Shown here one piece after another: positions 3,241-39,184 of a DNA stretch of 64,000 nt. The notes beneath the pieces were generated by a model that was not told the DNA's origin, made no database searches, and worked only from the letters and a program-made list of their open reading frames with translations. The translations under genes and the position numbers were made by a program. Numbering within the stretch: the first letter of the stretch is position 1; every line of letters starts with the position of its first letter. Source of the DNA: Actinocorallia populi (GTDB lineage Bacteria; Actinomycetota; Actinomycetes; Streptosporangiales; Streptosporangiaceae); contig NZ_PVZV01000009.1 in NCBI RefSeq assembly GCF_002995495.1, positions 42,888 to 106,887 on the forward strand. Direction: 5' to 3'.

Positions 3241-4661
3241 GCGGGCAATTTAGCGATATCTGATCGGGTGCGGAGGATCCACACGGTCAACACGATCGCG
3301 GCCGCGGTGAGGCCCGCGCCGATGCCGAAGGCGAGCCGGAAGCCGTCGGTCAGCGCGAAGGCCTCGGACTCCCCCCGCCCGGTGAGGCTCTCGGTGCGGG
3401 AGGCCGCCAGGGTCGTCAGCACCGCGACGCCCAGGGCCGAGCCGATCTGCTGGGTGGTGTTGAACAGCCCCGAGGCCACCCCGCTGTCCTCCGGCCGTTC
3501 GACGGACATGCCCAGGCCGGTGAGGGCGGGCATGGCGAGCCCGAAACCGCCGGCCAGCAGCAGGGCCGGCAGGACGTCCACCAGGTAGGAGCCGTCGGAG
3601 GGGAGGCGGGTGAGCAGGAGGAACAGCGCGAACAGCAGGCCGAGCCCGGTCAGCAGCATCGGGCGCTGCCCGAAGCGGGTGATGAGGCGGGCGGAGAACC
3701 CGAGGGAGACGACGCTGATCGCGAGCGCGGCGGGCAGCATCGCCAGCCCGGTCTCGTAGGCCCCGTAACCCAGGACGTTCTGGAGGTACAGGGCGAGGAC
3801 GACCTGGAAGCCGTACGTCGCGGCCAGCGCCAGCATCTGGACGAGGTTGGCGCCCCAGACGTTGCGGGCGCGCAGCATCCCGAGCCGCAGCAGCGGGCTG
3901 GCCGCGGTGGCCTGGCGGGCGAGGAAACCGGCGAGCAGGACGAGCGACAGGGCGGCGAGCCCCGCCGTGCGGCCGGTGGCCCAGCCGTGCTCGTCGGCCT
4001 GGACGATCGTGTACACGCCCAGCATCACGCCGCCGGTCACCAGGGCGGCGCCCAGCGCGTCGGCGCCGCCGCTCAGACCGGGGCCCCGGTCGTCCTGGAG
4101 GATCCGCAACGCGAAGAAGACGGCGGCCGCGCCGATCGGCAGGTTGATGAGGAAGACCCAGCCCCAGCCGAGCGTGTCGGTGATCACCCCGCCGAGCACC
4201 TGCCCGATCGAGGCGCCCGCCGATCCGGTGAAGGCGTAGGCGCCCAGCGCCTTGCCGCGTTCGACGGGCTCGGTGAACAGCGTCACCACCATGCCGAGGC
4301 CGACCGCCGAGACCAGCGCGCCGCCGGCGCCCTGCAGGAAGCGGGCGGCGATCAGCGCCTCGGGGCTGCCCGCGATCCCGCACAGCAGTGAGGCGAGGGT
4401 GAAGACGACCAGGCCCGCGACGAACACGCGCCGGCGTCCGAGCAGGTCGCCGAGCCGTCCGGCCAGCAGCAGGAGGCCGCCGAACGCGATCAGGTAGGCG
4501 TTGACCGTCCAGGTCAGCCCGGAGGCGGAGAAGCCCAGCTCGCGCTGGACGGCCGGCAGCGCCACGGTCACGATGCTGCCGTCCAGGATGATCATCAGCG
4601 TTCCCGCGCACAGGACGGCGAGCGCCGACCAGCGCGAGGGGGCGGTACGGGTGCGCGTCAT
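3237..4661 (-). CDS. DHA2-family MFS drug exporter (14 TM, EmrB/QacA-like)
   Basis: A 474-residue integral membrane transporter with about 14 hydrophobic segments, the count typical of proton-coupled DHA2 multidrug exporters. Motif A is clear after TM2 (GRLGDLLGRRRV), and the motif C region in TM5 (GSAGASIGQVLGG) supports export. ATG 4661 is chosen because a purine-rich GGAAGAG lies just upstream; an in-frame GTG at 4685 is the alternative. The gene is preceded by marR on the same strand and by a palindrome at 4696-4715, so it is probably repressed by that MarR and induced by its substrate. Its stop overlaps the kinase start. Substrate unknown. Confidence 0.9.
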   Translation of the reverse strand: MTRTRTAPSRWSALAVLCAGTLMIILDGSIVTVALPAVQRELGFSASGLTWTVNAYLIAFGGLLLLAGRLGDLLGRRRVFVAGLVVFTLASLLCGIAGSPEALIAARFLQGAGGALVSAVGLGMVVTLFTEPVERGKALGAYAFTGSAGASIGQVLGGVITDTLGWGWVFLINLPIGAAAVFFALRILQDDRGPGLSGGADALGAALVTGGVMLGVYTIVQADEHGWATGRTAGLAALSLVLLAGFLARQATAASPLLRLGMLRARNVWGANLVQMLALAATYGFQVVLALYLQNVLGYGAYETGLAMLPAALAISVVSLGFSARLITRFGQRPMLLTGLGLLFALFLLLTRLPSDGSYLVDVLPALLLAGGFGLAMPALTGLGMSVERPEDSGVASGLFNTTQQIGSALGVAVLTTLAASRTESLTGRGESEAFALTDGFRLAFGIGAGLTAAAIVLTVWILRTRSDIAKLPA

Positions 4662-30300: not shown

Positions 30301-30965
30301 TCAGGGTGGTGCTGGCCGACGACCAGCGTCTGGTGCGTGCCGGATTCCGGTCGATCCTCGAGGACGAGGACGACGTCGAGGTGGTCGGCGAGGCCGGGGA
30401 CGGCGACCAGGCGGTGGCGGCCTGCCGGGAAACGCGCCCGGACGTGGTCCTCATGGACGTGCGCATGCCCGGCACCGACGGCCTGGAGGCGACGCGGCGC
30501 ATCACCGCCGACCCGCGGCTGGACGGCGTCAGGGTCGTCATCCTGACCACCTTCGACCTGGACGACTACGTCTACAGCGCGCTGCGGGCGGGCGCCAGCG
30601 GCTTCCTGCTCAAGGACACCGACCCCGACGAGCTGCTCCACGCCGTGCGGGCGGCGCACCGGGGCGACGCCCTGATCACCCCGTCGGTCACGCGCCGGCT
30701 CATCGCCGAGTTCGCCGGTCGGGTCAAGCCGCCGGCGCCCGCCCCGGCCCTCAACGCCCTCACCGCGCGGGAGCGCGAGGTCATGGAGCTCGTCGCCGCG
30801 GGGCTGACCAACGACGAGATCGCCGCCCGCCTGGTCCTCAGCCCGGCGACCGCCAAGACCCACGTCAGCCGGATCCTCACCAAGCTGGCCGTCCGCGACC
30901 GCTCCCAGCTCGTCGTCCTGGCCTACGAGTCGGGCATGGTGCGGCCCGGCTGGTTCGGCGGCTGA
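30297..30965 (+). CDS. NarL/FixJ-family response regulator
   Basis: A 222-residue response regulator: receiver domain with the phospho-acceptor aspartate in DVVLMDVRMPGTDG, acidic pocket LADDQ, conserved T and K (LTTFD, FLLKD), and a LuxR-type helix-turn-helix (LTAREREVMELVAAGLTN, then SPATAKTHVSRILTKL). It is the cognate partner of the overlapping kinase. The small membrane protein and MMPL transporter that follow in the same direction about 100 bp later are plausible targets, which is inference from order. Confidence 0.94.
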   Translation: MIRVVLADDQRLVRAGFRSILEDEDDVEVVGEAGDGDQAVAACRETRPDVVLMDVRMPGTDGLEATRRITADPRLDGVRVVILTTFDLDDYVYSALRAGASGFLLKDTDPDELLHAVRAAHRGDALITPSVTRRLIAEFAGRVKPPAPAPALNALTAREREVMELVAAGLTNDEIAARLVLSPATAKTHVSRILTKLAVRDRSQLVVLAYESGMVRPGWFGG

Positions 30966-38001: not shown

Positions 38002-38069
38002 GACTCGAGTCTCATTCATCCCCCGCGGACCGCGTGCGACCGCCTGCGCGGCACGCCGGAGAACGCGGC

Positions 38070-38105
38070 GGGCCCCGGGGAGCTACCCAGCCCCGGGGCC
38101 CTTTT
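38070..38105. terminator. Strong hairpin with T-tract downstream of the tRNA-like RNAs
   Basis: Eleven-base arms GGGCCCCGGGG/CCCCGGGGCCC with a 10-base loop, followed on the plus strand by TTTT. On the minus strand it follows the two tRNA-like RNAs and could stop their transcript before the alcohol dehydrogenase promoter. Confidence 0.55.
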
Positions 38106-38137
38106 GTCCGCTCTTCTGGCACGCCGGCGGCGTTTAA

Positions 38138-38245
38138 GGACGGGGATCATCCGTGATGACGGCGCGCTCTACGGTTGAGCTACCGCGCCATGTGGAGGCG
38201 CGGGCCGGATTTGAACCGGCAACCCGCCGTGCTCCGTCCCCGTCC
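38138..38245 (-). ncRNA. Circularly permuted tRNA-like RNA, unit 2 (YrlA/Y-RNA-like)
   Basis: Reading the minus strand: GGACGGGG (38245-38238), ACGGCG (38230-38225), a T arm with GCCGG stem and TTCAAAT loop (38220-38204), acceptor 3' strand CCGCGCC (38203-38197), a 7-base loop TCCACAT that includes a CCA, acceptor 5' strand GGCGCGG (38189-38183), D arm GCTC/GAGC (38180-38166), CGCCGT (38164-38159) and CCCCGTCC (38145-38138). The acceptor strands pair over 7 bp, ACGGCG pairs with CGCCGT where the anticodon stem belongs, and GGACGGGG pairs with CCCCGTCC over 8 bp to close the RNA. Order T arm - acceptor - D arm is permuted relative to tRNA and equals the tRNA-like module of YrlA Y RNAs. The D loop lacks the second conserved G. 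Confidence 0.7.
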
Positions 38246-38271
38246 GGTCGATCCGGCGATGAGCGGTGCTT

Positions 38272-38401
38272 GCTGAGATTGGAGCGAGAGCCTGAGATTG
38301 ACCGGGCTGCCTCTACCGATTGGGCCACCCCGGCAGGAGTGCCGGGGGCAGGACTCGAACCTGCACTGTCACCACCGTTCAGACTGAGCCTCATCCTCAG
38401 C
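38272..38401 (-). ncRNA. Circularly permuted tRNA-like RNA, unit 1 (YrlA/Y-RNA-like)
   Basis: On the minus strand: leader GCTGAGGATG (38401-38392), T arm with GCAGG stem and TTCGAGT loop (38364-38348), acceptor 3' strand CCCCGGC (38347-38341), 6-base loop ACTCCT, acceptor 5' strand GCCGGGG (38334-38328), D arm GCC/GGC with an AATCGGTAG-type loop (38325-38309) and trailer ending CAATCTCAGC (38281-38272). The acceptor pairs over 7 bp; CGG in the leader pairs with CCG after the D arm, and TGA with TCA beyond it, giving an interrupted extension of the anticodon-stem position. Leader and trailer ends pair in GCTGAG/CTCAGC. CAATCTCAG occurs twice in the trailer, so two alternative closures exist. 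Same permuted order as unit 2, with different arm sequences. Confidence 0.65.
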
Positions 38402-38403
38402 TT

Positions 38404-38443
38404 TCCGGGCCCTTCGGCCCGGACCCCCGCGCTCCAGCGGGGG
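38404..38443 (-). terminator. Two hairpins between the 243-aa gene and the tRNA-like RNAs
   Basis: TCCGGGCC/GGCCCGGA (38404-38423, 8-bp arms, 4-base loop) and CCCCCGC/GCGGGGG (38424-38443, 7-bp arms, 6-base loop) lie between the stop at 38453 and RNA unit 1. No T-tract on the minus strand. They could end the mRNA or act as a processing or partial read-through element. Confidence 0.4.
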
Positions 38444-38452
38444 AGTCCTCGA

Positions 38453-39184
38453 TCAGGCGAAGAGGTAGCGGAACACCGCGTCCCCGACCTGCCGGTCGGC
38501 GACCTCGATCCCGTTCGCCTCCTCGCGGGCGTACTTCACCGCCGCCATGAGCTTCTCGACGCGCTCGCGCAGCTCGTTGACGCGCCTGGCCGGCATGGCG
38601 CCGGAGAAGCCGACCTTGGTCCAGGTGCCGACGACGATGTCCTCGGTGTAGGTCTCGACCTGGGCGGGGTGCTTGTCCGTCGCCTCGTACAGGACGTGGG
38701 CCCGCGGGACCTTCTTCGTCCGGGTCGTGCGGACCGGTTCCGTGCGCCACACGTCCGCGGACTCGTCGAAGGTCCAGGTCTCGGCGGCGTCCAGGACCGG
38801 CAGTTTCCCGATGAGGGTCTGCAGATCGGTGAGCTGCTTCTCGAGGAACAGCAGGTAGGTGACCGGAACGTCGGACAGGAGGGTCCGGCCGTCCACGGTG
38901 ACGTCCGCGCGCGCCTCGCAGTTCGCCCAGTCCTTGGTGGCGACCACGTCGAACAGCCGCGACAGGGCGACACCGGCCTCCCGCAGGACGTCCTCCGCCC
39001 GGACCTGGACCCTGGCCGACTCCGGGGGCAGGGTCTCGCCCTCGTCGTCGTTGGGCTGGTAAGTCCGCGAGATTCCGGACAGGAGGGCGGGTTTCTGGAG
39101 CCGGTGGTAGGCGTCGGTCAGGTCACGCTGAGTTCGGGACTTGGTCCCCTTTTCTACCGCGATGATCTGGTTCAACTTGGACAC
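38453..39184 (-). CDS. Conserved protein of unknown function next to the tRNA-like RNAs
   Basis: A 243-residue, soluble, charged protein without a catalytic motif that I can name; it resembles an uncharacterised actinobacterial family (DUF7873-like, from memory). Segments likely to be conserved are the N-terminal KLNQIIAVEKGTKSRT, then FDVVATKDWANCEARADV, DVPVTYLLFLEKQLTDL, ETWTFD, a KHPAQVETYTEDIVVGTWTK strand region, and a C-terminal helix PARRVNELRERVEKL followed by KYAREEAN. GTG 39184 opens the conserved region. Ten bases after its stop begin hairpins and then two permuted tRNA-like RNAs on the same strand, so protein and RNAs may share a transcript and act together; an RNA-binding or RNA-maturation role is speculation. 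Confidence 0.75.
   Translation of the reverse strand: MSKLNQIIAVEKGTKSRTQRDLTDAYHRLQKPALLSGISRTYQPNDDEGETLPPESARVQVRAEDVLREAGVALSRLFDVVATKDWANCEARADVTVDGRTLLSDVPVTYLLFLEKQLTDLQTLIGKLPVLDAAETWTFDESADVWRTEPVRTTRTKKVPRAHVLYEATDKHPAQVETYTEDIVVGTWTKVGFSGAMPARRVNELRERVEKLMAAVKYAREEANGIEVADRQVGDAVFRYLFA

Follow-up and report, generated by a model that had tools for sequence, protein, structure and literature searches.

The closest described counterparts of the locus analysed here are the YrlA-class Y RNAs of bacteria and their protein partner Rsr, the orthologue of Ro60. In these RNAs the parts of a tRNA follow one another in permuted order (T arm, acceptor strand, loop, acceptor strand, D arm) on a stalk, and the gene for the protein adjoins the RNA genes. 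According to PMC8394870, the stem of the Y RNA binds Rsr; its tRNA-like domain is a binding site for PNPase and a substrate of the modifying enzymes DusA and TruB. A protein and a Y-like RNA are also combined in the rsr-yrl-rtcBA RNA repair operons described in a portion of PMC7790460. Permuted order is found as well in the genes for two-piece tmRNA, which are probably matured by RNase P and tRNase Z, and in the permuted tRNA genes of primitive eukaryotes and archaea, where the 3' half precedes the 5' half (both according to a section of PMC3985003).

The locus compared with them lies in a 64,000-nucleotide stretch (the window) on contig 9 of the 8.25-Mb genome of Actinocorallia populi. On the minus strand, to which all features of the locus belong, an RNA element of 382 bases (window positions 38449-38068) is located directly 3' of the gene for a protein of the uncharacterised DUF7873 family. 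It opens with two short hairpins, continues with units 1 and 2, and ends in a GC-rich hairpin. YrlA already provides the topology of the units; what appears to be new is the protein that accompanies them, the arrangement in two units and the occurrence in phages. We consider it reasonably likely that this structured two-unit RNA works as the RNA component of a ribonucleoprotein with DUF7873; the protein would then sit on the conserved stalks, and the tRNA-like arms would dock a tRNA-binding enzyme. The gene-RNA pair recurs in many bacteria and phages and therefore likely represents one unrecognised tRNA-imitating particle. Judging from sequence comparisons, the units are most likely Y-RNA-like tRNA mimics of a Ro-independent ribonucleoprotein, the protein of which is probably DUF7873.

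The first 5' hairpin (38424-38443) starts ten bases past the DUF7873 stop codon and is indicated by the predicted fold and by a consensus helix, in which three of five pairs are changed on both sides in at least one of 22 aligned sequences. The second (38404-38423), recognised from the predicted fold and the alignment, varies in length between relatives and is absent from the consensus fold. Unit 1 (38270-38403), a stalk with a permuted tRNA-like domain, scores 143.6 bits with covariance model R1, and unit 2 (38106-38268), with a three-helix stalk, scores 157.7 bits with model R2; the window sequence belonged to the training set of each model. In both units the T arm comes first, followed by the 3' acceptor strand, a short loop, the 5' acceptor strand and the D arm. 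The earlier note had described two tandem minus-strand units with this order, which direct reading confirmed, and had given their acceptor strands as perfectly complementary, different between the units and separated by loops of 6-7 bases, which re-reading reproduced.

In unit 1 the T arm (38348-38364, read from the sequence, with three of five pairs changed on both sides) is followed by the acceptor hairpin (38328-38347, six of seven pairs changed on both sides), composed of CCCCGGC (38347-38341), the six-base loop ACTCCT (38340-38335) and GCCGGGG (38334-38328), and by a D arm of three invariant pairs (38309-38325). The stalk is closed by the helix GCTGA/TCAGC and an inner CTGA/TCAG helix. 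Its conserved 3' element (38271-38301) is, in the alignments, among the most conserved stretches of the RNA and is retained where the tRNA-like part of unit 1 is lost. By eye, GGAGCG in the 5' hairpin loop (38404-38443) could form a pseudoknot with CGCTCC in the tail of unit 1 (38281-38290); the sequences are nearly invariant.

In unit 2 the T arm (38204-38220), again read from the sequence, has three of five pairs changed on both sides, the acceptor hairpin (38183-38203) six of seven and the D arm (38166-38180) three of four. The acceptor consists of CCGCGCC (38203-38197), the seven-base loop TCCACAT (38196-38190), which opens with N-CCA, and GGCGCGG (38189-38183). The ends of this unit pair further, as had been claimed, through GGCG/CGCC (38228-38225 with 38164-38161) and GGACGGGGA/TCCCCGTCC (38245-38237 with 38146-38138), and an outer helix that had not been listed, CGCCGG/CCGGCG (38258-38253 with 38127-38122), is also present. 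The terminal GC-rich hairpin (38070-38101) is predicted by folding and recovered as a consensus helix with compensatory pairs; it is terminator-like, without a T run, and is not called by the terminator scan. The feature originally placed at 38138-38401 is indeed present there, but extends to about 38068-38449.

The alignment of 22 sequences comprised the window and 21 relatives, nine of them named. Its consensus fold contains 81 pairs, 48 of which have at least one sequence changed on both sides. Such compensatory changes, proposed as a check in the earlier note, were found in 9 of 24 pairs of unit 1 and 26 of 35 pairs of unit 2, with 98.7% and 97.1% of the cells paired, respectively. In 500 shuffled controls 91.0% (unit 1) and 79.6% (unit 2) of the cells were paired, none of the shuffles reached any of five pairing measures, and sliding the partners lowered pairing to 33-47%. 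In unit 1, the D arm and both stalk helices hardly vary, so that covariation tells little about them. Among 23 matches to the unit 2 model in the viral set described below, 34 of the 35 pairs were changed on both sides; these matches came from 20 of 52 loci, were picked for good match and aligned by fitting to the model, and three of them are unit 1 heads by position. Single-sequence folding energies of the units were moderately better than those of shuffles (z -1.75, -2.19 and -1.56), and for the whole 382 nt z was -3.47, with none of 100 shuffles as good. At the level of sequence, two permuted tRNA-like folds are established by covariation.

The DUF7873 gene (38453-39184) has a GTG start and encodes 243 amino acids matching Pfam PF25283 with 389.1 bits (E 1.2e-116, cut-off 27); the scan ran from residue 3, and the GTG start was chosen by eye from the N terminus and length of the family. 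The databases contain at least 6,996 relatives. Among the matches listed, the closest named ones belong to Actinomadura (83% identity) and another relative reaches 95%. The protein has no match in NCBIfam, PHROGs, PADLOC or PDB, no family or fold match marks it as a toxin, and DUF7873 is not mentioned in the papers searched. The AlphaFold2 model (pLDDT 92.9, pTM 0.76) consists of helices and strands, with two long elements at residues 149-164 and 173-192; the turn that joins these contains three invariant residues, H170, A172 and Q173. Our guess from the model is that this long hairpin is the natural candidate for RNA contact. A structural search with the model gave no clear match among solved or predicted viral structures, and the structure therefore provides no independent sign of RNA binding. 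The predicted pI of 5.6 and net charge of about -4 at pH 7 are not typical for an RNA binder.

RNA and gene are associated across bacteria and phages. DUF7873 is encoded by 15 of 100 genomes (the window's own and 99 relatives), being broken in two of them (two frames in G023, a remnant with stops in G049). The unit 2 model R2 scores at least 87.7 bits in exactly these 15 genomes, 13 of which had fed the model, and in none of the other 85. At E 0.001 it also matches 15 genomes lacking DUF7873, with no more than 47.7 bits, and ten of these 15 weak best matches are located within 3 kb of a TROVE match. The DUF7873 profile matches one of 14 control genomes, that of Deinobacterium chartae, where TROVE matches too. 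A larger locus set comprised the best 80 of at least 529 DUF7873 relatives in the genome collection, all actinobacterial by title. Unit 2 is present at all of these best 80 loci (lowest score 87.9 bits), 71 of them outside the training set. A simple motif scan found at least one unit within 600 bases at 78 of the 80 and no unit elsewhere in 989,146 bases on both strands; a looser scan, independent of the models, was positive for 77 of 78 actinobacterial downstream windows versus 10 of 1053 control windows. At the great majority of loci the units share the strand of the gene and follow directly after its 3' end.

Unit 1 is full-length at 61 of the same 80 loci (at least 107.8 bits) and shortened at the other 19 (50.7-67.4 bits), the stalk being kept and the tRNA-like part missing. 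In eight of the 19 that were inspected the stalk sequences are almost intact, and the head is replaced by an insert of roughly 25-60 bases in seven and by almost nothing in L082. As the stalk persists without it, the tRNA-like head of unit 1 is a module separable from the rest. A Pfam scan of neighbouring genes (20 of 22 chosen ORFs, 12 of the 80 loci) revealed two RNA-repair proteins, both at L102 of Streptomyces smaragdinus, where an RNA ligase (PF09414) and a HAD_SAK_2 RNA-repair domain (1796-2869 and 4107-4640) flank the DUF7873 pair; most of the others were unrelated. A related RNA ligase is encoded near L089 and L090, giving three of 80 loci in all. The combination of a protein with a Y-like RNA module and an occasional RNA ligase recalls the rsr-yrl-rtcBA operons, but RtcB was not among the 20 neighbours scanned.

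DUF7873 is further encoded in 73 phage records and in four records of a plasmid collection, at least one of which is, judging by its size, a chromosome. The viral set of 52 loci comprised 40 from IMG/VR (several of them near-duplicates, and some contigs possibly host DNA), ten of the 73 phage records and two of the four plasmid records. At least 600 bases follow the gene at 48 of the 52, and the looser motif scan detected a unit within 700 bases at 42 of these 48, versus 23 of 963 control windows; two hits look spurious by eye (that in L035 and, of the three in L066, the first), both loci having model matches. Covariance matches added units at L030, L031 and L050. At L029 the units are 1.2 kb away on the other strand, at L068 about 1.8 kb away behind another gene, L058 has by eye only half a unit, and the units of L055 and L056 correspond to weak matches. 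The pair reaches phages of actinobacteria, cyanobacteria and proteobacteria: units were identified by both motif scan and covariance in phages of Gordonia (three examined), Arthrobacter, Rhodococcus, Pseudanabaena and Klebsiella (one each). A Rhizobium and a Vibrio phage each carry a single unit whose acceptor loop contains an additional hairpin; it was seen by motif scan and eye and missed by the covariance models. In a Microcoleus record the units are displaced. In four of the ten annotated phages (Mimi, Phendrix, NiceHouse and RHph_TM21B) DUF7873 lies within a tRNA array or at its edge; ARAGORN found no tRNA near the gene in the Pseudanabaena and Klebsiella phages.

The permuted domain of T arm, acceptor and D arm that characterises Y RNAs is present in both units. 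The genetic linkage to rsr/TROVE that is also characteristic of Y RNAs is replaced here by linkage to DUF7873. With respect to the remark in the earlier note on an unknown protein without Ro nearby, TROVE is located on another contig, and the protein is DUF7873, the regular companion of the RNA. A TROVE (Ro) gene, which the same note had suggested seeking elsewhere in the genome, was found on contig 1, with its own permuted Y-RNA-like units just upstream. They form an array of at least two units, and more by eye, directly upstream of the gene (L004 60-700; L005 6290-6930; contig 1 of G000 at about 1402290-1402930), one stretch of which is called tRNA-Pro by ARAGORN, probably a false positive. 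Units in a row beside a protein gene are common to TROVE and DUF7873 loci; the window differs from YrlA/Rsr in its companion protein, in its stalks, in the fixed order of two distinct units behind the gene and in the absence of the 5' motif of the relatives' TROVE-linked units. No Rfam family reaches its gathering score in the window. The YrlA model (RF02553) matches the units with 38.4 bits (E 7.5e-7) and 22.1 bits (E 0.039) against a gathering score of 69; of the initial description as YrlA-like mimics, the permuted topology holds, but not the curated score. Since the TROVE-linked units of the same genome (51.8 and 39.2 bits) also miss it, this cut-off is strict for the group, and since 7 of 14 control genomes are likewise matched below it, such matches are weak evidence alone. 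At 15 further DUF7873 loci Rfam returned 82 matches (tRNA, tRNA-Sec and tmRNA), by position none at a unit, so that across the window and these loci no Rfam family at gathering score covers the DUF7873-linked RNA.

These similarities raise the question of whether the units are ordinary Y RNAs serving the genome's Ro/Rsr in trans, with DUF7873 a mere neighbour. The shared topology, the sub-threshold YrlA matches and the TROVE gene in the genome would fit, as would the distribution of the two genes among the 99 relatives (both in 10, only DUF7873 in 4, only TROVE in 17 and neither gene in 68), since TROVE occurs in 10 of 14 relatives with DUF7873 versus 17 of 85 without (p 2.5e-4, relatedness uncorrected). 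We nevertheless regard this reading as unlikely. Four of the 14 relatives with DUF7873 have no TROVE match, and strong unit 2 matches track DUF7873 (15 of 15 genomes with it, 0 of 85 without). A strict 5' motif (for example GCGCAGG or GGGTCGAA), the putative Ro-binding site, is carried by 24 of 30 TROVE-linked units versus 3 of 139 DUF7873-linked actinobacterial units; because it was read off the same 30 units, the result is the contrast and not the 24. The 30 units came from the 20 of 30 TROVE loci with a detectable unit, at least one being counted twice (L156 and L182 overlap). Linkage would also arise if the RNA regulated the DUF7873 gene, and the position of the RNA immediately 3' of the gene at most loci is what a cis-regulatory or antitoxin-like RNA would show; the displaced units of L029 and L068 and the lack of any toxin-like family or fold match make this improbable. 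A greater, though still low, probability attaches to a shield or decoy, in which the arms compete with tRNA-cleaving nucleases of phage-host conflict and DUF7873 stabilises the RNA. It agrees with the tRNA-array setting in phages and with the competitive-inhibitor role suggested for Salmonella YrlA in a portion of PMC7790460, but the units offer no anticodon loop to cleave, PADLOC gave no match, and the gene is also found at the best 80 bacterial loci, where the surroundings scanned are mostly ordinary genes.

The acceptor loop bears on a further possibility, that RNase P and tRNase Z open it and produce a nicked mimic whose 3' end is a real N-CCA, like two-piece tmRNA, with which the units share the permuted gene, the short loop between acceptor strands and, in some units, the N-CCA-like loop start. 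Among actinobacterial units the loop begins with N-C in 129 of 139 and with N-CCA in 25 of 139; the corresponding numbers are 60 and 31 of 68 for the viral set, which includes a few spurious hits, versus 13 and 2 of 30 for TROVE-linked units. CCA is, however, absent from 114 of the 139 actinobacterial loops, by eye it begins the second hairpin in several divergent phages, where it would be paired, and the window has no tmRNA match at gathering score (11.5 bits, cut-off 47); we consider such maturation doubtful. That the units are tRNA genes in circular permutation, or the decayed remains of tRNAs in tandem, is highly improbable. The order from T arm to D arm and the N-CCA remnants would suit a tandem tRNA origin, but ARAGORN reported no tRNA at the units in its scan of the window, neither unit was found to have an anticodon arm or loop, the outer ends instead forming a long stalk that covaries in unit 2, and pairing is held over wide divergence. 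Maturable permuted tRNAs, the other suggestion of the earlier note, are unsupported, because a stalk replaces the anticodon arm and the unit 1 head is missing at 19 of 80 loci.

In the preferred reading, a DUF7873 ribonucleoprotein, the RNA would be co-transcribed with the DUF7873 gene, giving either a single RNA of some 380 nt or two RNAs of some 130 and 160 nt. By analogy with YrlA, DUF7873 may bind the stalks and so occupy the position of Ro/Rsr in Y-RNA particles. The tRNA-like end could act as an adaptor or competitor for enzymes that read the tRNA elbow and acceptor stem. A purpose in tRNA maintenance, decay or protection would be likeliest, on thin support, because of the tRNA-array setting in some phages and the RNA ligase near three loci. 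More tentatively, and with less than even probability, DUF7873 could represent a second, Ro-independent lineage of tRNA-mimic ribonucleoproteins of bacteria and phages, gripping the stalks while two permuted heads, perhaps opened by RNase P into two-piece tRNAs that end in an authentic CCA, trap tRNA enzymes or nucleases that cleave tRNA in RNA damage and phage conflict. A large uncharacterised family appears to have its own RNA partner; if so, tRNA mimicry would extend past Ro and Y RNA, and it becomes testable what requires a tRNA shape minus the anticodon.

Several minor observations concern annotation. The sole ARAGORN call in the window, a tRNA-Leu (GAG) at 30800-30870, lies inside a response-regulator-like reading frame on the opposite strand and has no Rfam support at gathering score. 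In Gordonia phage Phendrix an Rfam tmRNA match of 89 bits (L064 1063-1591), missing from the annotation of the record, is located inside the tRNA array, and a permuted tmRNA match of 73 bits (L057 2585-2794) shares its viral contig with a divergent DUF7873 pair. In the Gordonia phages Keelan (L065 4259-4504) and Ziko (L074 3979-4188), annotated hypothetical ORFs overlap the RNA units and may not be genes.
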